From IMG/VR virus record IMGVR_UViG_3300043419_001150, positions 1 through 22,988 of that record: a stretch of 22,988 nt of DNA, one strand, 5' to 3'. Source of the DNA: a virus. Under the pieces are notes generated by a model. That model was not told where the DNA came from. It ran no database searches and saw only the letters and a list, made by a program, of their open reading frames with translations. The translations under genes and the position numbers were made by a program. The number at the start of each line of letters is the position of its first letter. Position 1 is the stretch's first letter. Shown one piece after another: positions 4,639 through 18,141 of this stretch.

Positions 4639-6063
4639 CTAAATATTTTCCTGAATTTCTAAAGTATTTCCCTCGTTTTCTGTATTTACTTGGGTTCCAA
4701 TAGTTTCAAGGAATCTTCTTCTTACCTCTTTTTGTGATTGTTGTTTTTGTGATTCAAAGCCCTTTTCAGTTAGAACATCATTTGTATCGATGATGATCCT
4801 TGAGTTGTCAAACAAACAGTCTTTAAATATCATACCATCATCACCCATACGGTTTTTAAGTATTGATATAGTTGCAATCTTTTGATCTTTTTGTTCAAGG
4901 GTTTTTCCGATACTCATGATAAAGTGTGCGATCTGAGCTTTTTTAAGGTTACCACCCATATTCTCAGTCTTAACAACCTCAACACTCGTTGAACTTCTGT
5001 TACCTTGTGTGGCTGTCCAACCAACAACGTTCATCTCATCAACCATGCTTTCAAAAGCACGCATGATTTTACCCTCATTTGACCACTCTTCTGAATTGGA
5101 ATTTTCCTTCTCCATCGATAAGCAATCGATATAGTCTAGGACAAGGACATCAACTTTTCTACCTTTGGCGTTAATCTTTTTAATGATGTTCTTAATCTTG
5201 TTGATTGTAACACCATCTGAAGGTAGTTTTTGTAAGAACAAATTATTTTCGTGTTCTTCTTTAATCGCTTTGATTTTTGCTTGGATCAGAGCTTTGTTCT
5301 CCGACAACTCACTAAGCGGTATTTTTGTTAGGGCTGAAAAATGTTTTCTTTGTACGGCTTCTTCTTTATCTTCAAAAAAGATCTGTAGTACAGTTTTACC
5401 CTCTAAGAACGCACTACTAGCCACTTTGGTTAAGAAAGTTGTTTTACCAACACCTAATGGTGCGATAACTAACCCAACTTCACCTTTTGACAACCCACCT
5501 TTAGTGCAGTCATCAATACCTTGTATACCAGTTGGTACTGGATCACGGTAATCTTCAGATAAAACCCTTTCTATATTATCAAAAAGAAGTATTGGATCTT
5601 GTTCTTCCTTAAACGTGATCGCATCTTTGATTTTTTTCTCGATCTCGTCATAATCAGCGACAATACCACGATCCAACTTGGATTTTATCTCGTTAACAGC
5701 GTTTCTAATTGACTGTAACTTACAAAACTTTTTTGCGTTGCTCTGTACATTTAAATTACCAACCTTGCAGTTTTCGATGTCGGTAATCGTATCATCCAAT
5801 TGGGTTCTCAAAGCTTCTTGAGAAACCCCAACTTCCTCATTAACTAAAAGCCTTAAAGCTGGGAAGTTCATAAGAACATCGTGGTCTTTATGGTATTTTT
5901 TAATTAAGTGCGCTATCCGTTGGAATGACTCGGATGGGAAATACTTCGGGTCGATAATATCAATTATCGCCTGCCCGAATTTATGGTCTGTAATTATTTC
6001 ATTTAATAACTGTAGTTGAAAGTCTTTACCTAAATCTTCAAAGTTGTTTATTATATTACCCAT
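4639..6063 (-). CDS. Replicative DNA helicase, DnaB / T4 gp41-like
   Basis: This is a RecA-fold hexameric helicase expected to unwind DNA at the phage replication fork. In the 474-aa product residues 1-150 resemble the helical N-terminal domain of the DnaB/gp41 family, and residues about 175-425 form the motor. The Walker A loop is APLGVGKTT (A201 to T209, with K207), and the Walker B strand is VDVLVLDY with D310. The polar sensor is TATQGNR (Q353), and ILKNRMGD near 401-408 corresponds to the DnaB arginine-finger region. The C-terminal 50 residues are charged and glutamine-rich, probably a disordered partner-binding tail. The gene follows the 153-aa unknown by 16 bp in the recombinase-nuclease operon. 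No separate primase or loader gene is in the window. Whether it is closer to gp41 or to DnaB cannot be settled by eye. Confidence 0.9.
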   Translation of the reverse strand: MGNIINNFEDLGKDFQLQLLNEIITDHKFGQAIIDIIDPKYFPSESFQRIAHLIKKYHKDHDVLMNFPALRLLVNEEVGVSQEALRTQLDDTITDIENCKVGNLNVQSNAKKFCKLQSIRNAVNEIKSKLDRGIVADYDEIEKKIKDAITFKEEQDPILLFDNIERVLSEDYRDPVPTGIQGIDDCTKGGLSKGEVGLVIAPLGVGKTTFLTKVASSAFLEGKTVLQIFFEDKEEAVQRKHFSALTKIPLSELSENKALIQAKIKAIKEEHENNLFLQKLPSDGVTINKIKNIIKKINAKGRKVDVLVLDYIDCLSMEKENSNSEEWSNEGKIMRAFESMVDEMNVVGWTATQGNRSSTSVEVVKTENMGGNLKKAQIAHFIMSIGKTLEQKDQKIATISILKNRMGDDGMIFKDCLFDNSRIIIDTNDVLTEKGFESQKQQSQKEVRRRFLETIGTQVNTENEGNTLEIQENI

Positions 6064-6079
6064 TTAATTTTTTTTATTA

Positions 6080-6541
6080 TTATACCAATTGAACCTGTAA
6101 GTTGTAACCCATGTACTCTGTTTCCAATTCCTTTGTTGGTGTGCAGAGACATTTTTGTACTCTTGTGATTAATTCGTAAATGTGCTGACGAATATCTACG
6201 GTGTATCTAACCTTAACTGGGTAAATAGTTGCATCCCATTCTCTATATGCGATAACTTTACCTTCTTGCTTAACAACAATCTTCATAACGTCTTTAGAGT
6301 TGTTTTGCTCGTAGTCTTGAGTTTCGGCAAACTGTCTTTGATGCTCAGTTACAAAATCCAGGGTTCTGTCTTTTAGAACGCTTTGGATTAAGCGCATGTT
6401 GTCATCAACAGCTTCTTTGAAGTTAAGCGAGTTAATCGCTCTATGGTTAAAACCGATAATGTTAAAGAATCTTTGTACGATTATATTATCGTTAAGATAA
6501 AGTGTAAACTCAAATTTACGTTGTTCTCTTTTGTCTTCCAT
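6080..6541 (-). CDS. Uncharacterised 153-aa protein of the replication operon
   Basis: I do not recognise this family. I chose the ATG at 6541 (MEDKREQRKFEFTLY) because it lies 1 bp after the stop of the upstream nuclease gene, like the other tight junctions here. A frame opening at 6568 would overlap that gene by 26 bp and add nine poorly structured residues. The product has no signal peptide or membrane segment. It looks alpha/beta: an N-terminal strand pair (KFEFTLYLNDNIIVQRFF), a helical middle with many charged residues, then strands (KIVVKQEGKVIAYREW and YPVKVRYTVDI) and a C-terminal helix with two cysteines (KCLC). Its position between flap nuclease and helicase suggests a replication accessory or regulatory role. 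In T4 the small transcription genes dsbA and 33 lie next to rnh, but I see no resemblance strong enough to name either. Confidence 0.8.
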   Translation of the reverse strand: MEDKREQRKFEFTLYLNDNIIVQRFFNIIGFNHRAINSLNFKEAVDDNMRLIQSVLKDRTLDFVTEHQRQFAETQDYEQNNSKDVMKIVVKQEGKVIAYREWDATIYPVKVRYTVDIRQHIYELITRVQKCLCTPTKELETEYMGYNLQVQLV

Positions 6542-6542
6542 G

Positions 6543-7592
6543 TTATTTGTTTTTTTTGTTGTAATCATTTTCTTCCTTTTTTATAATAGTAATAAAAGAA
6601 CTCCAGAAAACAAAGAAAGCGTCATCATTTTTTGGTAAAAAATTTAATAATTCGTCTTCTTTCATCATTTCCATGATTTTTTTAATACCACCACGCCCTT
6701 CTGGGGATAAAGTTTCATTAACCATTTCATTAATCGCTTCTTTCAGTTCTTCCGTAACGTGCGGTTCTTTTAAGTTGATTATCTTATTCATCACTGAAAA
6801 ATAATCACTACCGTAAGTACCCCACTTAGTTTCACCGTTTATGATCGCGTTTAATGTCTTGTCATCGGGTTTTTCAACTAACAATTCCTTGGTTCGATTA
6901 AGTACCCAATCTTGATCAACTGATTTAGTTTTTATCTCTGGAAAATATTTTAAAACTTTTTGTTCCCCAACATTTTGTAAACCAGATATATTATCACTAC
7001 TATCACCAGCAATCATTTTTATGATACCAACATTTGAATAATGGTAATCAAAGTAACTATCAAAGTTATCCATGTTAATCATTACTTTAGCGCCTTTGAT
7101 TGTTAAGCAAACCTTAGTGTCCTCATCTAATAATTGTAATAAATCACGGTCGTTAGTGTAGACTATTTTACTTTCATTAGGTGAGTTCATTGAGTAGTGT
7201 GCGATACCATCATCAGCCTCACAACCATCAATTTCAACCTGACGTATCGATAACTCCTCAAGATATTGTTTGATTCGTATTCTTTGTCGATCTAAATCAA
7301 AAGCCTCATCCAGGTCAACCTTATTATTGCGATTTTCTTTGTAGTAGGGGTAATAAGCTTTTCTATAATCTTTAGAACCCTTACCTTCCCAAAAAACAAC
7401 AACCTTTGTTACGGCGTAATCTTGGTAAAATCGTTTAATCGTGTTGACGAAGTGGAAAATGGTGCCAACACTTCCGTGTTTACCTTGAAAATGTTTGGCA
7501 CCGTGAAATCCTTGTTTTAGAAGATATTCACCATCAATAAGTAACGAGTTAATCTTAATTACTCTGTTTCTGATTGGTTTATTAATCTTCAT
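6543..7592 (-). CDS. rnh: 5'-3' exonuclease / flap endonuclease, T4 RNase H-like
   Basis: This FEN-family nuclease is expected to remove RNA primers and 5' flaps during lagging-strand synthesis. From the ATG at 7592 it has 349 aa; T4 RNase H has 305. The start was chosen because it overlaps the uvsX stop by only 11 bp and leads directly into MKINKPIRNRVIKINSLLID. An upstream in-frame ATG at 7637 would overlap by 56 bp. Metal-site motifs are present in order: D20 (LLIDGEY), E69 within FWEGKGS, the arch segment YRKAYYPYYKENR (76-88), E125/D127/D128 (GCEADDG), D148/D150 (TNDRDLL), and D197/D200 (AGDSSDNISG) leading into the helix-3-turn-helix LQNVGEQKVLKYF. The usual Asp in the FD/ID motif is Glu here. 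The C-terminal about 100 residues are helical and lysine-rich. Confidence 0.92.
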   Translation of the reverse strand: MKINKPIRNRVIKINSLLIDGEYLLKQGFHGAKHFQGKHGSVGTIFHFVNTIKRFYQDYAVTKVVVFWEGKGSKDYRKAYYPYYKENRNNKVDLDEAFDLDRQRIRIKQYLEELSIRQVEIDGCEADDGIAHYSMNSPNESKIVYTNDRDLLQLLDEDTKVCLTIKGAKVMINMDNFDSYFDYHYSNVGIIKMIAGDSSDNISGLQNVGEQKVLKYFPEIKTKSVDQDWVLNRTKELLVEKPDDKTLNAIINGETKWGTYGSDYFSVMNKIINLKEPHVTEELKEAINEMVNETLSPEGRGGIKKIMEMMKEDELLNFLPKNDDAFFVFWSSFITIIKKEENDYNKKNK

Positions 7593-8586
7593 AGTCTGGC
7601 TCTTGATATTTGGTTGGTACTTCTTCTGATAAATCAAAATCAGCGGCGCCCAAAGTATCTACCCAGTATTGTGAACAATCTTTTTTGTATTGGTCGATAG
7701 CTTCTTTAGAATCCAAGATAAATCCGTGTGGTGTTGCGATAATTCTACCATCACCATAACCCAAACCATTTACGTGGTTTTTCATCACACTGATTTTAGT
7801 TCTTGTTGCAAATTTAACTTTTCTACCATTTTTGGTTGCGTCAATTTTAGTCGTACCAGCGTTTTTCTGATTACCGAATAAGAAAATGATCGTAGAGTTC
7901 AACCAGAAGGCGTCACCACCCTTAGCTTTGATCCTAGGCTGTCCCATTGGGCTATCTGGTAACTCAACCCATGGTTGATTAATAACCACCATAGTATTGG
8001 TGTATTCTGACGTATCCTTTCTTGTACTGTTGATTCGTTGGTTAATACCCATACCAATCTTTTCAGCCAATACACCAGCGGTGTGTTGTTTACCACCTTT
8101 ACCGTCAAATGTCATTTTACAAGGAACAGAACCAACAGAATCCCAGAAGAAAACCAAATCAAACGGGATTTCACCTTTTGCTTGATCATCTAATAGTTTG
8201 TTGATGTAATCGGTAATTTGTTCAATGTAAAAGAAATCGTCACGGTAAAAGAATCGGCCAACCCATTCACCTGTTGCGGGATCTTGGTCGCAATCCAAAC
8301 CCATTAATTTTGCGTGGCTAAAATCCCACTTTTTCTCGGTAACCAGGAATACTGGGATCATACCTTGTTTTTGTGCTGAAATAGCTGCTAAAATTAAAGC
8401 AGTTGTTTTACCAGTATCTGAGTGACCTAGTAACATGTTAATGTGTCCAACAGCTGGACCTGGGATACCAGTCATTTCCAAAAAAGCGGGTCCGCAATTT
8501 AGGAATGTATCTGGTTTGTAAGTTGTAGAGGAACTGTATTTATTCCTCATGTCATCGAATGAAAATTCTTTCTTTTTAACTGGCAT
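7582..8586 (-). CDS. uvsX: UvsX/RecA-like recombinase
   Basis: This RecA-family ATPase should form filaments on single-stranded DNA and drive strand exchange for recombination-dependent replication and repair. Of 334 aa, residues 45-66 hold the Walker A loop (GHSDTGKTT, G54 to T62, K60). E84 follows at the end of strand LVTEKKWDF and is the likely catalytic glutamate. The Walker B strand is DLVFFWDSVGS (D149). The segment VINQPW (201-206) corresponds to the RecA Asn-Gln sensor region at the start of DNA loop L2, and the glycine-rich RIKAKGGDAFW follows. The length is shorter than T4 UvsX (about 390 aa), mainly at the N-terminus. The C-terminus is acidic (EPDYED), as in RecA and UvsX tails. 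It lies 87 bp downstream of the SSB gene across a hairpin and overlaps the nuclease start. Confidence 0.9.
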   Translation of the reverse strand: MPVKKKEFSFDDMRNKYSSSTTYKPDTFLNCGPAFLEMTGIPGPAVGHINMLLGHSDTGKTTALILAAISAQKQGMIPVFLVTEKKWDFSHAKLMGLDCDQDPATGEWVGRFFYRDDFFYIEQITDYINKLLDDQAKGEIPFDLVFFWDSVGSVPCKMTFDGKGGKQHTAGVLAEKIGMGINQRINSTRKDTSEYTNTMVVINQPWVELPDSPMGQPRIKAKGGDAFWLNSTIIFLFGNQKNAGTTKIDATKNGRKVKFATRTKISVMKNHVNGLGYGDGRIIATPHGFILDSKEAIDQYKKDCSQYWVDTLGAADFDLSEEVPTKYQEPDYED

Positions 8587-8673: not shown

Positions 8674-9612
8674 TTAGAACGGTAAATCGTCAATCTTCAA
8701 CTTAGCGTTTGGTACCTCTTCATCTGTTGGTCCTTCTGTCATAACAGAATCATCATCTTCTTCAGACATGGCAACTGGTGCGTCATATACCGCTTTAGGT
8801 GCTGGTGTTGGTGTGTATGTACTAACACCATCTTCCACCTTAGCGATGAAACATTTTTGTTCAGCATCCCAGATTGGTTCGCTACCCTCAGCAACGATAT
8901 TCAAATACTCAACAGATTTTTTCTTGAACACATCTGTCCAAGCCATTGGGTCACCCAACCACTCTACCGCTTGGTTTTCATCATCAGAAAGTTTAGACTC
9001 TCTATCGGGGATGATAGAAGCAACTTTTGTAAAACCAACTTTTGAGTCTTTTGATTTATCTCTGATCATAGAGATTGTAAGGTCGAAACCTTCGAATGGG
9101 TTCCAGAACGCCCCGTACTTTTTAACAAGCGGTGCGATTTTATCCATAATCCCTGAACCGTCTTGTACAGCTGGGAATCTCCAGAATTTAACACCTTCAT
9201 GCTCCTTACCGCGTTCAATAACACGAACGATAAAGAATTGTCGTGATTTGTATTGGATGGCCAATTTTCTTTCTTCTTTGTCTTCACTCTTCATTAAGAA
9301 TTTGTACATCTCATTTAAAGGTGATGCTTCGCCATCTTGTGATGGGTCATAAAGTTTTGTCCATCTCTTTCCAATTTTTAAGTTGTGGAAATAACCAACT
9401 TTGTACCATTTTGTCGGATCGTCTTGGTTAGGAAGAATCCTAACTGATTTCTCACCGCTTTGCGCACCCTCATCAAGTGCAATTGTAAAATACTTTGTCA
9501 AGTCGACAGAACTAGATTGGGTAGTCTGTGTTGTTTTCGACTTTGCTTTTTCATAGTCGGCCAGTGTGTCTGTTGCGGCCTTGGACCAATCGATTTTCTT
9601 GTAGTCAATCAT
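8674..9612 (-). CDS. 32: Single-stranded DNA-binding protein, T4 gp32-like, with bacterial-SSB-type C-terminal tip
   Basis: The protein coats single-stranded DNA and coordinates helicase, recombinase and polymerase. It has 312 aa against 301 for T4 gp32. Residues 1-35 form a polar N-terminal arm. Residues about 37-245 match the gp32 OB core, seen in the strands KSRQFFIVRVIERG and EGVKFWRFP, the helix GIMDKIAPLVKKYG and NPFEGFDLTI (171-180; T4 gp32 has a similar Trp-Glu-Gly segment). After a Pro/Thr-rich linker (265-280) comes an acidic tail (EEDDD, TDEEV). The last residues, KLKIDDLPF, match the tip of cellular SSB proteins rather than gp32. The zinc-binding cysteines of T4 gp32 are absent; the only cysteine is C254. 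The gene has its own promoter (9636-9666) and is followed by a hairpin, as expected for an abundant protein. Confidence 0.88.
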   Translation of the reverse strand: MIDYKKIDWSKAATDTLADYEKAKSKTTQTTQSSSVDLTKYFTIALDEGAQSGEKSVRILPNQDDPTKWYKVGYFHNLKIGKRWTKLYDPSQDGEASPLNEMYKFLMKSEDKEERKLAIQYKSRQFFIVRVIERGKEHEGVKFWRFPAVQDGSGIMDKIAPLVKKYGAFWNPFEGFDLTISMIRDKSKDSKVGFTKVASIIPDRESKLSDDENQAVEWLGDPMAWTDVFKKKSVEYLNIVAEGSEPIWDAEQKCFIAKVEDGVSTYTPTPAPKAVYDAPVAMSEEDDDSVMTEGPTDEEVPNAKLKIDDLPF

Positions 9613-10048: not shown

Positions 10049-10798
10049 TTAATAGTTACTTACTGGTTTATCGTTATTATTTGTTTTATAAAAACTGTTT
10101 TTGATATCCATCTCATTATAGTTATTCATTAAACTATCGATCATAGACATCTTATCTGGTCTTTTTTCTAAATCTGTTTGAGTTTTTGTTGAATTACCAC
10201 TCATATACTCATCCTGTGTAACACTAAATGGGTATGAATCCTTAGCTAAAACTTTTCTTCTTTCTTCCTCAGTTGGTGGTCTCATTAACTCAACCTGTTT
10301 GGTTAACGCATCCATTTGTTGTACTAAAGAATCCATTTTCTGTAGATTTTGTTCAACGCTATTAACCTTGTTAATTATAGCCTCAATCTTTTCGGATGAG
10401 CTAGCGATTTTTTGGACGATGTCATCAGCTTTTGCCGCCATTTCTTTTGTTGAGTTTACCAAGTCAGTAACATCAACCTCAACATCACCATCTTCAGCTT
10501 GTGTATCCAAACCATCAATAGCCGTATCGTCAGCTGGGACTTCCTCACCCCCCATATCATCTACAGGAGCGGCTTCTTCACCGCCAGTTGTATCAACACC
10601 AGCATCTACAGGGGCAGCTTCTTCACCACCAGTTGTATCAACACCAGCATCAACTGGAGCTTCCTCTGGAGCAACCTCATCCTCTTCAGCTTCATAAAAT
10701 TTATAATGATGCCCTTCGCTCAATCTATCTTGATAGGACATGATTTTGTTAAACCTTTTTATCTCTTCGGATAAAATTTTATCTAATTTGTTGCTCAT
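10049..10798 (-). CDS. Acidic repeat and coiled-coil protein, unknown function (249 aa)
   Basis: I do not recognise the family. Three regions are visible. Residues 1-36 form a charged helix (MSNKLDKILSEEIKRFNKI). Residues 37-108 are a very acidic, Ala/Pro/Gly-rich disordered stretch with two perfect 15-residue repeats (DAGVDTTGGEEAAPV at 50-64 and 65-79) and partial copies on either side. Residues 109-172 show heptad-like spacing (KIEAIINKVNSVEQNLQKM, then VQQMDALTKQVELM), a likely coiled coil. The C-terminal part has a conserved-looking EEERRKVLAKDSYPF motif and an Asn-rich end. The coiled coil implies oligomerisation, and the acidic linker would be a flexible spacer or DNA mimic. Its ATG overlaps the stop of the upstream small gene by 4 bp (ATGA) and it is coupled to the 101-aa gene. 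A structural/assembly role is inferred from context only. Confidence 0.78.
   Translation of the reverse strand: MSNKLDKILSEEIKRFNKIMSYQDRLSEGHHYKFYEAEEDEVAPEEAPVDAGVDTTGGEEAAPVDAGVDTTGGEEAAPVDDMGGEEVPADDTAIDGLDTQAEDGDVEVDVTDLVNSTKEMAAKADDIVQKIASSSEKIEAIINKVNSVEQNLQKMDSLVQQMDALTKQVELMRPPTEEERRKVLAKDSYPFSVTQDEYMSGNSTKTQTDLEKRPDKMSMIDSLMNNYNEMDIKNSFYKTNNNDKPVSNY
10560..10649. repeat. Two tandem 45-bp in-frame repeats
   Basis: The copies at 10560-10604 and 10605-10649 differ at only three bases, all synonymous in the coding frame. Each encodes 15 residues of the acidic linker of the 249-aa protein. A degenerate partial copy flanks each side. The period is a multiple of three, so copy-number change would alter linker length without breaking the frame. 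Confidence 0.9.
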
Positions 10799-11088: not shown

Positions 11089-14000
11089 TTAACCCATTGC
11101 TTCTAATACTTGCTGAGAATATCCTGTCCTTTCAGATACTTTTGCATCAGATTGGTCTTTTGGTCTTTCCCATTCTTTCATAATCCACTCAGTTGCTGAC
11201 CTAACAGTTGTCTTAGTTTTTAATTTAGTTAAAACACCTTTATATGAATCTTTAAACTCTTTGACAAGGAATCCATAGTTAATCTCATCTGTTAAATTCT
11301 TTTGCGTGTAGTCAACACCCATCGACTTAGCATAGTCAGCTAAGTTTTGTTGTCTGTTTGATGATGTCCATTGCGCGTATCCATATCCAGTTGACCCATT
11401 AATTCTTAATTTACCAACTTTTACACCACCACCTTGTATCCTATCTGGTATAAGACCACTTTCGGCTATTAAGTTGCCGACAATACCAGCAGCTTGTACG
11501 TTTGTTAAACCTAAATCACTCATTAATTTTTTAGCTATGCCAGCACCCTTTTTAGCTTTTTCGGCCGATGTTAGAGCGGTTCCTTTGGTAAATGAGTTAT
11601 CATTAACAGTAGGTATTACTTGCCCAGTAAGATATGGTTCTGGGTCGGTTAATAAAGCTTGATTGGCTGAGCTGAAATAATTACTATTATCTAAACTAAT
11701 AGCGTTTTTCAAAATCTCGAAGTGTAAGTGCGGTTGACCTGGTGACCCTTCATCACCAGATTTGGCGATTAACTGGCCAGACTTTACAGTATCCCCAGCT
11801 GATACCAATCTTTCTCTTACGTGACCATATAACGTTGATAATCCATTGTTTGGGTGTGATATTATTATCGCATAACCATAACCACTTTGCGCTTGGCTTG
11901 ATACAACAACACCATCCAATACGGAGTAAACATTAGTACCAAGAGCCGCCCTTAAATCGTTACCCTCATGTTGTCTACCATTTCTAGGTCCAAAAGGTGA
12001 TGTCACTACGATATTATCCAATGGGTTTGACCACCCCGCCACTAGACTATTACCGTTACCCTGTGTTGCTGCCTTATATACGTTCTTGGTTTGCTCATCA
12101 CCAAAATTCTTTATTACATGTATTGGTAGTGTGTCACCAGTTGCGCCAGTGTCTTGCGGTAACTCGGTTGAGTTGATATAGCCGTGTAAAGTTAATTTTA
12201 ACGTATCGGTTTCAAACTTTTCCGTGTCCTTACATATTTTAAAGAATGAATATCTTTTACTTTTACCATAGGCACCAGCCACATATACAACCAACTCATC
12301 GCTACCATCATAACCAGTTGGTTTAAACTTAGAGGAAAAAGCTTTTTCAAATTTAAAACTACCATCAGTTAGTGTACCCAATGCTCTTGGTGTACTCGTG
12401 TTGGCCACTGTTGTTTGATTAGCAAATTGAGGTAAATTCGAAAATAATTGAGCTGCGAAGTTTGTTGTTTGTGTCTGTTGTGTTGGTAACACTGGTGAAT
12501 TGGGGAATTTAAACGAAGTGTTAACTTTACCAACAGTAGGTGGTTTATATAAAACTGGTGGTGCCACATACGTAGCATCGGTAGCATTTGCCGCTTGAAT
12601 AGCACTTTGTGATTGTTGTTGTAATGATGCTTGGTTAACTAATAAAGATGGTGCGTTTGTCGCCGCCGATGTATCAAAAAGATTAACCAATTCATACGTT
12701 GATAAGCCGTTAAATGTTTGGTAGTTACTTTCAGTCGTATCACTAACCCAATAGTTAACCCTAGTTATAATAGTAAGGTTTGATTGATCCACATCAGCTG
12801 GGAAGGTTATCTTAGGTAGGGTCGCGTCATTAGTTATGGCCTTGTCACTACTATTTGTAATTAAAATTGTTTTTGGGTTATATTTTTCATCTTCAGTTAG
12901 GGTTAAATATGTTAATAATTCACCTGGTTTTCCATTAAATTCTGATATTTTAACTAACACAGACTGATAGCCATCCCCACTAGTCGTTGGGTAGTTATCT
13001 AATAAACTACTAAGTGATAGAATGGGATCAACATCATAACCTAATTTGTGATATAAATCGTAAACAACTATATCGATAAAATAAGATGATGTGATTCCTA
13101 TATCCCAATCGCCTTCTGATAAAACACTAGCATTGTTATGTAAATAAGACACCAAAGTCTTAATTAATACCGTATCTGATGAATCACCACCAGTCATTAA
13201 TTTTAGGTAAGATGCAATAACCCATAAACCGTTATATGTAACATATTTATCGCTATCAGTACCTTTTTGGTATAAAAGACCATATTTTGTCTGACTTGTA
13301 CTACCGTCAACACCAGTAAAGGCTCTATCAATATATATCTGACCAGACGTTGGTATCGGTGTTGTGTCATTTCTATCAAGATAACCTTGTTGCGCCGAGA
13401 GTTCATTAGCTCTTTTAAGGAAAGCTTTAATGATTGCAACGTTTGGTGTTGGTTTTCTAGCGATTGGTTGTCTAACACCTTTAAAAGTTGTTGACATATT
13501 ATTCGGGGTTATCTTATGACTAACGTTCGTAATCCAATATGTACCGTAAAACAATGGTACGTTTCTTAAATAGAAGTAGGATAACGGTTGTATCGTTGCG
13601 TTACCAAGACTTGTAACGGTACAAGAATACGACCTATTTTCCATCGCACTAAAAAGTTTACCTGTTGATAGGATTGGTTGGTCTGTTTGTACAAGTCCCA
13701 CCTGGGCTTTTATACTTTCTTCAGTATTCGCAAACTCATCCGTTGATAATTGGATACTTTCAAACATGTTTTGGTTTTGGTTAGCGAAATCAACTATAAA
13801 CGATGAAACGTTTGAATTTCTAACATCCGATGGCGCATCCTCGTTAAGTATTCTACCATTACCATCAACATCCAACTTATTAGGATCTATATCTAAACAA
13901 AAAGTGTTACTTAAGTCAAAATTACTATTTGCCGAATTTTTTCTTTTGTTACCAGCATTAATGTTTGATGTTAGTGACCCAAATTGGAAAATAAAAGCTG

Positions 14001-17000
14001 GGTTTGATTCCCACATTTCTAAATTATTGAAAACACCAAACATATCGTGCGCTAAATCATATGGGCTATCGGATTCTGTTACCGATCCACTAAGATTTAT
14101 ATAAGATGTCATTGGCATCAAAAGGAACTCATGGTCACTAGCTAACTTAGATAATACGGTCCACATTGACTTAGATGTGGCTTTATTAATTTCAGTCGCA
14201 TTGAATATATCATCGGTTAACATTTGTTTTAGTGATACAATATCAACAAAAACTTTTGTACCAAAAGCGTTATTACCCCTATCAACAATACTAACATAGT
14301 CAACCAAATCTTTTAAATCTTTATTAGATTCAGTTAATAAACCAGCATCATCACAGATATCTTGCTGCTGAACATTAAAATTAAAAAACAGAGGGCTGTT
14401 TAATATTGCATTAACATCAGCGTTACCGAGCTCATAACTATGTTTTTTAATTAGTCTATCATCAGACAAATTGGGGTCAATAAAAGATACGTTTTTATCG
14501 TATAACGTTTTTATTCTATAATATGTCCCAGTTCTAATTTCCGCATCTTCTCTTGTTATCTCGGTATAAGTATTAGTGGTATCCCCTGTTGGGTTGCTAG
14601 TACCGCTACTGATTTTTTCAGATATTTTTGTGAATAAAGAACCCAAAGAGTTATTTAAAGTTGCTAAGGTTTTTTCTACAAAACCCTTATTAAAACTTTT
14701 TACCCAATCATTAAAGATAACATCAACTCCAAGATCATCGAATGTTTCAATATTGTAAGTAACTTTATTACCAGTTTGGGTTGGTACCCCATTTTTTATT
14801 TGGGTAATAATAACATCAGCTTTTTTGTTGTAATCGTATAAGGTATTTACAGCATTTTCTTTATTAGGGTAAATCGTTACCTCATTTTTATTTTGATTTT
14901 TTACATCAAAAATGTAATAAGATTTTTCCTTTTTTATATTTAACACATTATTTTTATATAAAACATCTGAAATAAAAGATCTTAAATACGTTATTAATAA
15001 TTTTAAATTATTTTCATTTAGTTGGATATTTAATTTTCTAAAAAAAGTTCTTGTTAACTCTTTTATCACAAAAAACTCATCTAAATTAGGGTCGACACCT
15101 TTCGTAGCACCCTTAAAGTAAACATATTTTTTTACTAAATTATCGATATCGATATTCAGATCACTATATGAGGTTATACTCTGATCCCCAAAAAGTATTG
15201 TTCTAAATAATAAGACATCACCTAATGGGGCCACAATATTTTCATATGTTCGAGTGTTTGTTGAATAGGCTACTATCGGGTTAAAAACAAAAGAACTCAA
15301 CCTTAGGCTATTTGGGTTGTTAACATCAGAACTCTCGATTGACAACGGGCCAGCTGTTGAATAATTATTCACAGTAATCTTAGCGTTTAAGAATTCATCG
15401 ATTACAAATCTAGCTTTATTTTCTTGACCTAACGTTAAAGCGGTATTAATTAATTTTGATAACCCCGTATTTGATGCGAATTCAATAAAAGAACCTGAAT
15501 ACCCACAAAGTATCGCCAATAACTCGTCTTTACCGAATGATCTACCGTCTAAAGTAAGTGATTCGGGTAAATTAGCATACCCAAACATTGTTGTGTGTTT
15601 AAGTAAGGATTTAAAATCAAAAGTATTAAAAGTTTTTGTGAAATAACTTTCTTGTGTTTCGTCACTAAATTTTTTAAATAAAGTTCTAAAATCCTCTAAT
15701 TTATCTACGTCAAAAACATCTAATAAAGCTTTTGCCGATAATTGTTCCTGGAATTGATTGTTATCAGAAAACAACCTCGTTAATTCTTTTGACTCGTTAT
15801 CAACTCTATGTGTTATGTATAAATTTAAACCAGATTTAAATTCGTCATATGTTGAAATATCCGACCTGTTTAAATTAACATCGTAAAAAGACTCACCATC
15901 CGTATAATCATAAACACTTTTATTTTTTAAATTAAAATGTGCAAATTCCAAATAATCAACTGATATTAATTTAGGTTTTTCAGATTGGTTTTTAGCCGCA
16001 AATTTAATTGTTTCGGGTGTGATTACTTTGTCATATTTTGGTGTATCGAACCAGAATAATCTGCTAGTGTTATGTATTAAAGATTTATTATCAAACTTAA
16101 GTTTTTTTATACCCTCTGGATCCGTAGTGTTTGAAACCAGGTACACATCATCGTATCTATCAAAATAATTAATAGCGTTACCATTTGTTGGTGCGTTTTC
16201 TGGTCTAAAATAAACTGGTGTAAATCTGTTTATTAATGAATTATCAAGTATTGGATTTACTCTAGGAATTGTAGTTTTACCTGAAAACTTATTAATGTTT
16301 TGGTTAAGATCAATAAATTCAAATAGCCCTGGGTTAATGTCAGAATACAATGATTTAGTGTCTCCATCATATTTTTTTAACACATCGTTAGACACGTCAT
16401 CATATTCAGCAAACGAACCGTCATTATATTTAAGTGTTTTTAAATACGCATCACCTTGGGTTTCGAATATCGTGTGAACAGTGTTTGTTTTTTGATACTG
16501 GTATCTAGGGCTTACCGAAGCCTTCGTTTCACTTAAACCGTAGGTATCACTATCGTTTTGTGTGAATAAGTTTTTAATATCGATATCCCCACCACAACTA
16601 GGGTAAACAACAAAAGCTCCTCTTGAGTCTAAGGCCTTTAATTTATTTTTTTCTCTTTGGTTAAATTCTCTAGACCAGACAGATGTTAGGTATCTTGAAA
16701 AATAATCATAAAGGTCATTACCCGTCAAATTATTAATCATAAAAATTAATTGGTATAACTCGAAATATTCTTTGGTTTTAATATCAATAAAACCGTTAAA
16801 AGATCTATAATCAACATTATACTTATCTAATATACTTAAATTCTTGTTAAATCTACCAAAACCTTCATCTGGTTCAACACCATCTGGTGGCATTAAACTA
16901 TATATCAATAATGTGATAAAATCTGGTATCTCAATATCGTCTTGTTTTGCTTTTAAATTGTTAACAGAACACAATTTTCTAACAATATTATAAACATCAA

Positions 17001-18141
17001 CCGTATCAATATGCCCACCAAGAAAATTACATTTTATTTTAGATAGTAATAGGAAAAATTCTATTTTTTCTTTATTGTTTTTATCAGTAAAAATAAAATC
17101 ATTATCAAACGTTAGCGCCGCTGTTATGGTATTTAAATCTGATTCTGGTGCTGGTAAATCGAATTTAACTGTCGGCCCGTAACTATTGTATGAAGCAAAA
17201 AAGTTTATGTTCTGATCATTATACGTTTTAAAGGTTTTTAATTTACCCCTAAAATTACCTATAATATGATAAGGTATCTTATCATCATTTAAGTTGGTGC
17301 CTTCTTTATTCTGACCATCTAAACCCTCACCAAAATAAACATAGGACATAGAGTTTAGATAATTATTTAATAAACCATACCCAGAAAAAGGTATGTGTGA
17401 TGAAATATTATTACTTAAAGGTATTTCTCTAGCGAATTCATAATCATAATAACCTTCGGTGTAATTTTTAGGTTCCGCGGTATCTTTATACGACTCATAG
17501 TTAAATAACATTAAATCATCGATAAATCTAGGCGTTAAAGGTTTTACAAATGGTAGTGTTACAGCCTTTAAAGCTGACTCAGCGTCTTCAGTAAAAGCGT
17601 ATGAACCATAGTGTTTATTCAATAATAATTTATTAGATAATAAATCAACACCGTCTTTATTAGTTATACCGTTAATTAAACTTAAATCGATATCCTTATC
17701 TGGGGTACCATAATAATAAAAATCATATAAACCACCTATGTACAATATTAAGTGTATCGGTACCTCGATTAAACCCTGTGAAGTTTTAAAAATTTTTGCT
17801 AATTGTGCTGGGGATATTTGGCCGTTATTGGAAGCTGTACCTAAACTACCAATGAATAGCTGTGCTGTTTTAAATAAACTACCTGTTTTAGATTCGTTAA
17901 CAATGTTTTGTGCAAAAATCGTGTGATTTACTGGTGTGTAATAAGTGTTTAAACTATTGCTACTATGAATATTACCAGAAAGTAACCTTTCTTCAAAAAA
18001 TAGGTTAACGTATTTCTGATATGTCGATTTAATTGTGTTATCATTGTACTCATCATACGCTTTTAACATAACAGACACTAGGTCATTTTCAGTACTACCT
18101 AAGTATCTTTCATTTAAATAATTCGATAAAGATGATGCCAT
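11089..18141 (-). CDS. Giant baseplate hub protein: gp27-like segment + M23 peptidase + tail lysozyme (2350 aa)
   Basis: This is likely the central hub/spike that opens the cell wall during infection. Residues 1 to about 1480 are not recognised: large, Asn/Asp/Tyr-rich, with no membrane segment. Around 1499-1565, the pattern YSCTVTSLGNATIQP, then FYGTYWITNVSHKI resembles the end of T4 gp27 and other hub (VgrG/late-control-D type) proteins. A further region to about 1840 is unassigned. It is followed by a Pro/Gln/Ala-rich linker (about 1845-1920) and a short beta-rich domain. An M23 metallopeptidase spans about 2040-2150, with zinc ligands H2058 and D2062 (HEGND) and the HLH motif H2138/H2140. 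A phage tail-lysozyme-like domain (about 2200-2350) carries GNLIAESGL with candidate catalytic E2227 and GYGYAQWTS. The ATG directly abuts the stop of the 966-aa gene (TAAATG). Domain boundaries are estimates. Confidence 0.88.
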   Translation of the reverse strand: MASSLSNYLNERYLGSTENDLVSVMLKAYDEYNDNTIKSTYQKYVNLFFEERLLSGNIHSSNSLNTYYTPVNHTIFAQNIVNESKTGSLFKTAQLFIGSLGTASNNGQISPAQLAKIFKTSQGLIEVPIHLILYIGGLYDFYYYGTPDKDIDLSLINGITNKDGVDLLSNKLLLNKHYGSYAFTEDAESALKAVTLPFVKPLTPRFIDDLMLFNYESYKDTAEPKNYTEGYYDYEFAREIPLSNNISSHIPFSGYGLLNNYLNSMSYVYFGEGLDGQNKEGTNLNDDKIPYHIIGNFRGKLKTFKTYNDQNINFFASYNSYGPTVKFDLPAPESDLNTITAALTFDNDFIFTDKNNKEKIEFFLLLSKIKCNFLGGHIDTVDVYNIVRKLCSVNNLKAKQDDIEIPDFITLLIYSLMPPDGVEPDEGFGRFNKNLSILDKYNVDYRSFNGFIDIKTKEYFELYQLIFMINNLTGNDLYDYFSRYLTSVWSREFNQREKNKLKALDSRGAFVVYPSCGGDIDIKNLFTQNDSDTYGLSETKASVSPRYQYQKTNTVHTIFETQGDAYLKTLKYNDGSFAEYDDVSNDVLKKYDGDTKSLYSDINPGLFEFIDLNQNINKFSGKTTIPRVNPILDNSLINRFTPVYFRPENAPTNGNAINYFDRYDDVYLVSNTTDPEGIKKLKFDNKSLIHNTSRLFWFDTPKYDKVITPETIKFAAKNQSEKPKLISVDYLEFAHFNLKNKSVYDYTDGESFYDVNLNRSDISTYDEFKSGLNLYITHRVDNESKELTRLFSDNNQFQEQLSAKALLDVFDVDKLEDFRTLFKKFSDETQESYFTKTFNTFDFKSLLKHTTMFGYANLPESLTLDGRSFGKDELLAILCGYSGSFIEFASNTGLSKLINTALTLGQENKARFVIDEFLNAKITVNNYSTAGPLSIESSDVNNPNSLRLSSFVFNPIVAYSTNTRTYENIVAPLGDVLLFRTILFGDQSITSYSDLNIDIDNLVKKYVYFKGATKGVDPNLDEFFVIKELTRTFFRKLNIQLNENNLKLLITYLRSFISDVLYKNNVLNIKKEKSYYIFDVKNQNKNEVTIYPNKENAVNTLYDYNKKADVIITQIKNGVPTQTGNKVTYNIETFDDLGVDVIFNDWVKSFNKGFVEKTLATLNNSLGSLFTKISEKISSGTSNPTGDTTNTYTEITREDAEIRTGTYYRIKTLYDKNVSFIDPNLSDDRLIKKHSYELGNADVNAILNSPLFFNFNVQQQDICDDAGLLTESNKDLKDLVDYVSIVDRGNNAFGTKVFVDIVSLKQMLTDDIFNATEINKATSKSMWTVLSKLASDHEFLLMPMTSYINLSGSVTESDSPYDLAHDMFGVFNNLEMWESNPAFIFQFGSLTSNINAGNKRKNSANSNFDLSNTFCLDIDPNKLDVDGNGRILNEDAPSDVRNSNVSSFIVDFANQNQNMFESIQLSTDEFANTEESIKAQVGLVQTDQPILSTGKLFSAMENRSYSCTVTSLGNATIQPLSYFYLRNVPLFYGTYWITNVSHKITPNNMSTTFKGVRQPIARKPTPNVAIIKAFLKRANELSAQQGYLDRNDTTPIPTSGQIYIDRAFTGVDGSTSQTKYGLLYQKGTDSDKYVTYNGLWVIASYLKLMTGGDSSDTVLIKTLVSYLHNNASVLSEGDWDIGITSSYFIDIVVYDLYHKLGYDVDPILSLSSLLDNYPTTSGDGYQSVLVKISEFNGKPGELLTYLTLTEDEKYNPKTILITNSSDKAITNDATLPKITFPADVDQSNLTIITRVNYWVSDTTESNYQTFNGLSTYELVNLFDTSAATNAPSLLVNQASLQQQSQSAIQAANATDATYVAPPVLYKPPTVGKVNTSFKFPNSPVLPTQQTQTTNFAAQLFSNLPQFANQTTVANTSTPRALGTLTDGSFKFEKAFSSKFKPTGYDGSDELVVYVAGAYGKSKRYSFFKICKDTEKFETDTLKLTLHGYINSTELPQDTGATGDTLPIHVIKNFGDEQTKNVYKAATQGNGNSLVAGWSNPLDNIVVTSPFGPRNGRQHEGNDLRAALGTNVYSVLDGVVVSSQAQSGYGYAIIISHPNNGLSTLYGHVRERLVSAGDTVKSGQLIAKSGDEGSPGQPHLHFEILKNAISLDNSNYFSSANQALLTDPEPYLTGQVIPTVNDNSFTKGTALTSAEKAKKGAGIAKKLMSDLGLTNVQAAGIVGNLIAESGLIPDRIQGGGVKVGKLRINGSTGYGYAQWTSSNRQQNLADYAKSMGVDYTQKNLTDEINYGFLVKEFKDSYKGVLTKLKTKTTVRSATEWIMKEWERPKDQSDAKVSERTGYSQQVLEAMG

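Follow-up and report, generated by a model that had tools for sequence, protein, structure and literature searches.

The gp32-like single-stranded DNA-binding protein encoded in the stretch of DNA analysed here (22,988 nucleotides, hereafter the window, a fragment of an uncultured virus with 33.6% G+C) ends in the type of C-terminal tip that is carried by bacterial SSB proteins (SSB-Ct). We found this tip throughout one clade of gp32-like proteins, where it is conserved while the sequence that precedes it varies, which suggests that the phages use the tip to summon the proteins that answer to host SSB. By a modest balance of probability, we regard the window protein as an orthologue of the gp32 of T4-like phages whose SSB-Ct-like tip would be read mostly by SSB-interacting proteins of the host. 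The features of the window on which the argument draws are the following.

8674..9612, minus strand: gp32-like ssDNA-binding protein, 312 aa, stop codon included (Pfam, PDB profile, Foldseek)
9505..9612, minus strand: its N-terminal segment, residues 1-36, with a helix at 9-23 and then a low-confidence linker (AlphaFold2)
8839..9504, minus strand: its gp32 core, an OB-fold, residues 37-258 (alignment, AlphaFold2, Foldseek)
8677..8838, minus strand: its disordered acidic tail, residues 259-312 (pLDDT, composition, linker pN/pS)
8677..8694, minus strand: its SSB-Ct-like tip IDDLPF, with a free C-terminal Phe (TAA follows at 8674-8676)
7582..8586, minus strand: UvsX/RecA-like recombinase, directly downstream of gp32 (PHROG 97, E 7e-15)
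6543..7637, minus strand: 5'-3' exonuclease, T4 RNase H-like (PF02739, E 8e-27)
6080-6568, minus strand: 162-aa protein in the exonuclease-helicase interval, with no Pfam or PHROG match
4639..6063, minus strand: DnaB/gp41-like replicative helicase (PHROG 19, E 2e-55; PF03796, E 6e-17)

The gp32 gene is followed by UvsX-like, exonuclease, small protein, gp41/DnaB-like helicase and NrdB/NrdA genes, the NrdA being a putative one named from its sequence alone, and the order gp32-recombinase-exonuclease-helicase-NrdB is also found in the Flavobacterium phage immuto. No isolate relatives above about 30% identity were found for the window gp32 and helicase, and none at all for a 966-aa large structural protein of the window. 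The replication genes are adjoined by the structural gene block of a 2350-aa protein (11089-18141, minus strand), the C-terminal part of which is peptidase- and lysozyme-like in appearance. Another protein of the window (10049-10798, minus strand, 249 aa) has imperfect VDAGVDTTGGEEAAP repeats and matches a head maturation protease profile weakly.

The window protein is a homologue of gp32, and its membership of the bacterial SSB family is excluded. Its sole Pfam family is gp32 (PF08804, E-value of 8.8e-9, 36.1 bits against a cut-off of 26.8), and no match to PF00436, the bacterial SSB core, was found anywhere in the window. When a family profile made from 30 relatives was compared with PDB chains, the gp32 proteins of T4 and RB69 were recovered (1gpc, 8gme). 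In the AlphaFold2 model, which has a mean pLDDT of 77, the core is predicted with confidence and the tail is disordered, and its Foldseek comparison with the PDB gave six significant matches, all of them T4 or RB69 gp32 chains (2a1k, 1gpc, 8gme, 2atq and no other entries at E <0.001). The N-terminal MIDYKKIDW...LADYEK is conserved among relatives; this segment matches the gp32 B-domain in position and may, by analogy with T4, share its role. The T4-type zinc site (His, three Cys) is absent from the window protein, where the positions read D..S..N, and from the subclade to which it belongs. However, C..CPxC is retained in L083 and L288, which represent two deep branches of the tip-bearing clade, indicating that the loss in the window protein is secondary within the family and is no evidence against gp32 membership.

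The ORF (9612-8674, minus strand, 312 aa) terminates in ...SEEDDDSVMTEGPTDEEVPNAKLKIDDLPF-TAA, a stretch that can also be written ...EEVPNAKLKIDDLPF-TAA, with LKIDDLPF at 8677-8700 and the complete KLKIDDLPF at 8677-8703. The last 54 residues include 14 acidic and 3 basic ones, and residues 261-306 have a pLDDT <50 in the AlphaFold2 model. The acidic residues, the hydrophobic-Pro-Phe end and the free C-terminus by which an SSB-Ct is recognized in sequence are all found in IDDLPF-stop. An earlier note on this DNA had described a gp32-like core that finishes in KLKIDDLPF behind an acidic tail and had stated that the tail of T4 gp32 ends otherwise; Pfam, PDB profile, Foldseek and ORF translation bear out the former, and the T4 end, ADDTDLDDLLNDL, agrees with the latter.

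To place the tip among its relatives, we assembled 295 distinct gp32-like proteins from viral contigs scanned with several seeds and from one scan of cellular genomes, with annotated phages included. In a careful tree from which the tail was left out, the tip-bearing sequences form one clade (support 100/99, 200/200 bootstrap trees), and in a quick tree of all 295 sequences the tip has a history of one gain and two local changes. Judging from these trees, the tip arose once and is clade-wide rather than a quirk of a single phage. The clade comprises 152 members, which range in identity to the window protein from 96% down to about 28-30%, and their endings are LPF (136), LPW (4), MPF (3), IPF (2), QPF (1) and LP[YHS] (6). 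The earlier note had named conservation in relatives as the check on its proposal, and the tip passes it, since 145 of the 152 distinct members keep [LIM]P[FW], the seven exceptions being the LP[YHS] and QPF ends. A Pro-Phe end was found in none of the 618 other ORF ends of those loci, so that a chance match, against which the tip pN/pS given below also speaks, is rejected. Together with the single origin, the retention in 145 of 152 members marks the tip as a functional element and not noise.

All six LP[YHS] ends belong to one rumen subgroup (L344, L346, L348, L349, L351 and L366, ending in DLPY, DLPH or DLPS), in which the terminal Phe is gone and the acidic residues, Leu and Pro are retained. 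The final Phe can therefore be lost. We looked for a second SSB that could compensate in this subgroup and found no PF00436 SSB, leaving that explanation unsupported. In a different small subgroup (L083, L084, L090, L369) Trp replaces Phe, the end being DQLPW or EQLPW. The sister clade, which includes immuto, the Microcystis phage Mel-JY01 and many marine and freshwater contigs, ends in FDDLFN or near variants; in many of its members (within L467-L526) a DLPW also occurs internally, some 20-25 residues ahead of the FDDLFNN end. Two gp32-like proteins ending in FDDLFNS and FDDLFND (L289, L290) are on contigs binned as Euryarchaeota and Nitrosopelagicus, which are marine archaea, a binning that may be wrong. 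Elsewhere, gp32-like proteins end in DLDDLLNDL (T4), RLAEED (cyanophages) and RKKRKK (SPO1).

The tip is under strong purifying selection, while the linker ahead of it evolves fast. Among 106 distinct sequences, Pro at position -2 is invariant and is written with four codons, position -1 is Phe in 103 and Trp in 3 (both Phe codons being used), position -3 is Leu in 103 and Met in 3 (with five Leu codons used), and Asp occupies position -4 in 101. As far as the sequences tell, this position profile is that of the SSB-Ct. When pairwise pN/pS was calculated in three subgroups (n=17, 18 and 75, respectively), with pairwise counts that represent non-independent events, the last four codons gave 0.00, 0.02 and 0.04, in contrast to 0.48, 0.78 and 0.56 for the linker just ahead of the tip; the gp32 core gave 0.07, 0.36 and 0.20. 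The contrast between tip and linker was the same in all three subgroups. One member (L025) has a deletion in the linker, yet its end is still LDDLPF. Linker acidity is kept less strictly than the tip, and some members, such as L034, have lost it.

Two tip-bearing gp32 genes lie on contigs of cellular genomes, binned as Paludibacteraceae (ending in DDNLPF) and Bacteroidales (SDDLPF). In the window, the start regions are devoid of Shine-Dalgarno motifs, as is usual in Bacteroidota. From the two MAG bins and these start regions, the tip-bearing phages probably infect Bacteroidota. Of 30 SSBs in a draw of genomes belonging to the same phylum as the Bacteroidales bin, 27 end in [LI]PF and 20 in exactly DDLPF. 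The phage tip is therefore identical to the one seen most often in the phylum of the probable hosts, which upholds the likeness to a host-type SSB tip that the earlier note had drawn. A gp32-like protein and a cell-type SSB occur together on two contigs. One is a phage-like contig of 286 kb in the Bacteroidales bin, with a gp32-like SDDLPF end and a cell-type SSB (PF00436) ending in GEDDLPF; the other (L506, on G064) has 355 kb, a gp32-like GGDLPF end and a cell-type SSB ending in PSDDLPF (L529, 4970-5272). The pair on the former is located as follows.

L288 contig (G017:C1), 163520-164065 and 44547-61413: gp32-like/cell-type SSB pair

A probable origin of the tip is suggested by the aligned ends: the tip clade has KIDDLPF where the sister clade has KFDDLFN and T4 has DLDDLLN. 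Since the DDL element is common to all three, the innovation is the terminal Pro-Phe. The earlier note had left it open whether the phage protein converged on the docking code of the host or acquired it, and the first half of that alternative is favoured, given that the sister clade and T4 have DDL[FL]N at that place. A short-motif alignment thus favours a scenario in which the terminal DDL element of gp32 itself would have converged once on the SSB-Ct code. For the capture of a whole SSB tail we found no evidence, as the linkers cannot be aligned and the DDL element is present in the sister clade as well. A cell-type SSB of the same phage was also considered as the source of the tail, and none was found in 9 large contigs, nor in 14 of 15 others, although the two contigs described above have both proteins.

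In the docking reading that we favour, the core would coat phage ssDNA in the manner of gp32, and the disordered, fast-evolving linker would present the tip to pockets that read the SSB-Ct, where a hydrophobic pocket would take the Phe, a basic lip the carboxylate and a basic ridge the Asp. This is how SSB-interacting proteins hold the terminal Phe, the carboxylate and the Asp of SSB itself, and SSB-Ct binding is abolished or weakened when the Phe is missing or Ser replaces the Pro (PMC10164576). By sequence position, the residues conserved in the phage tip appear to be the ones that SSB-Ct pockets read, and in the rumen subgroup with LP[YHS] ends SSB-type docking should be weaker. The likeliest readers would be host PriA, RecO, RecQ, DnaG and similar SSB-interacting proteins. 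If they do read the tip, they would attend to phage DNA under gp32 as they do to host DNA under SSB. Recruitment of such proteins, or competition for them with host SSB, as proposed in the earlier note, is a putative outcome of this docking.

It is possible, if less probable, that the tip instead docks a phage-encoded partner (the UvsX-like recombinase, the gp41-like helicase, a gp61-like primase or the polymerase), whose pocket would have converged on, or been borrowed from, those of SSB-Ct readers, the likeness to the host then being a matter of shared chemistry. The acidic domain of T4 gp32 binds UvsX, UvsY and gp59 (PMC3016280), and phage HK620 requires the NDYPPF tip of its SSB for recruiting its recombinase, Sak4 (PMC5928155), so that an SSB-like tip need not imply a host partner. 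In the window and in immuto, the gene that follows gp32 is UvsX-like, short gp61-like primases are encoded in most large contigs of the tip clade, and the shared ancestral DDL tip implies an inherited phage-phage docking. However, the exact host-type sequence with its Pro-Phe end arose in a clade of which all members with a taxonomic placement come from Bacteroidota bins, and the sister clade has a different tip beside the same neighbours (gp32-recombinase-exonuclease-helicase).

The host reading can be carried a step further, to a T4-like lineage lacking gp59 and UvsY that would have given mediator and helicase-loading duties to host RecO and PriA through its SSB-Ct-mimic tail, a suggestion that we regard as speculative and rather unlikely. 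If true, phage replication would run through the SSB hub of the host. Searches that matched both gp59 and UvsY in T4, in two cyanophages and in a Pelagibacter phage detected neither protein in immuto or in twelve large contigs, of which eleven have the tip and one belongs to the sister clade. Since one large contig of the clade encodes a family-B polymerase in addition to the gp61-like primases found in most, the phage appears to encode its own replisome and to be short of mediators. In a 166-kb relative (69 of 127 ORFs >130 aa), a family-B polymerase, RNR, dUTPase and PhoH are among the matches listed, and no SSB-interacting protein families are among them. However, immuto, which infects Bacteroidota, ends in FDDLFN, and gp59 and UvsY are undetected in it too, from which it follows that neither the host phylum nor absent mediators demand a Pro-Phe tip; the absence of these two proteins as its cause is accordingly weakened.

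Quite improbable, in our view, is a role mainly inside gp32, with the tail and tip acting as an acidic mimic of ssDNA and the Pro-Phe fitting a pocket of the core. T4 gp32 or T7 gp2.5 without the acidic C-terminus has a higher DNA affinity (PMC5686142), and the distal acidic region of gp32 has been proposed to serve ssDNA-binding functions (PMC11551737), but a pure charge mimic leaves unexplained a Pro-Phe with pN/pS near 0 where linker acidity can be lost, as in L034. Hardly credible is an LPF end that serves as a ClpXP degradation signal limiting the lifetime of gp32: the LPF of SsbA is such a degron in some Streptococcus mutans strains, where LPY is tolerated, but it goes unrecognised in E. 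coli, S. gordonii and other S. mutans strains (PMC5143411), it does not account for the conservation of an acidic residue at -4, and there is little for a phage to gain from destabilising its own SSB.

In the literature searched, a scope outside which most subscription journals fall, we found no gp32-family protein described as having an SSB-type tip. Phage proteins were known to dock on the gp32 tail and host proteins on the SSB-Ct, and a gp32 clade with the host code links these two systems, which were previously studied apart. The tip makes possible a simple test of phages plugging into the host SSB interactome, and would point to shared docking pockets exploited by Bacteroidota phages. The window protein resembles the gp32 of T4 and RB69 in core fold, Pfam match, N-terminal segment and disordered acidic C-terminal domain, and in its UvsX-like, RNase H-like and gp41-like neighbour genes, but it has DDLPF in place of DLDDLLNDL and has lost the zinc ligands, and the gp59 and UvsY of T4 were undetected in the large contigs of its clade. 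The immuto protein shares PF08804, the gene order and a Bacteroidota host, whereas its KFDDLFN end is without the terminal Pro-Phe. T7 gp2.5 is likewise a phage SSB whose acidic tail is a docking site for replication proteins, and its terminal residue is aromatic; however, it is of a different SSB family, has no Pro-Phe, and is known to partner with the polymerase and the primase-helicase of the phage. In HK620, an SSB-Ct-like tip (NDYPPF) is likewise found on a phage SSB encoded with a RecA-like recombinase, but this SSB is a different, tetrameric one, and the partner demonstrated for it, Sak4, is encoded by HK620 itself (PMC5928155). Finally, bacterial SSBs have a PF00436 core where the window protein has that of gp32, for which docking is predicted from sequence, while both present [D/E]-D-[LIM]-P-F at the extreme C-terminus, behind a poorly conserved, disordered linker.
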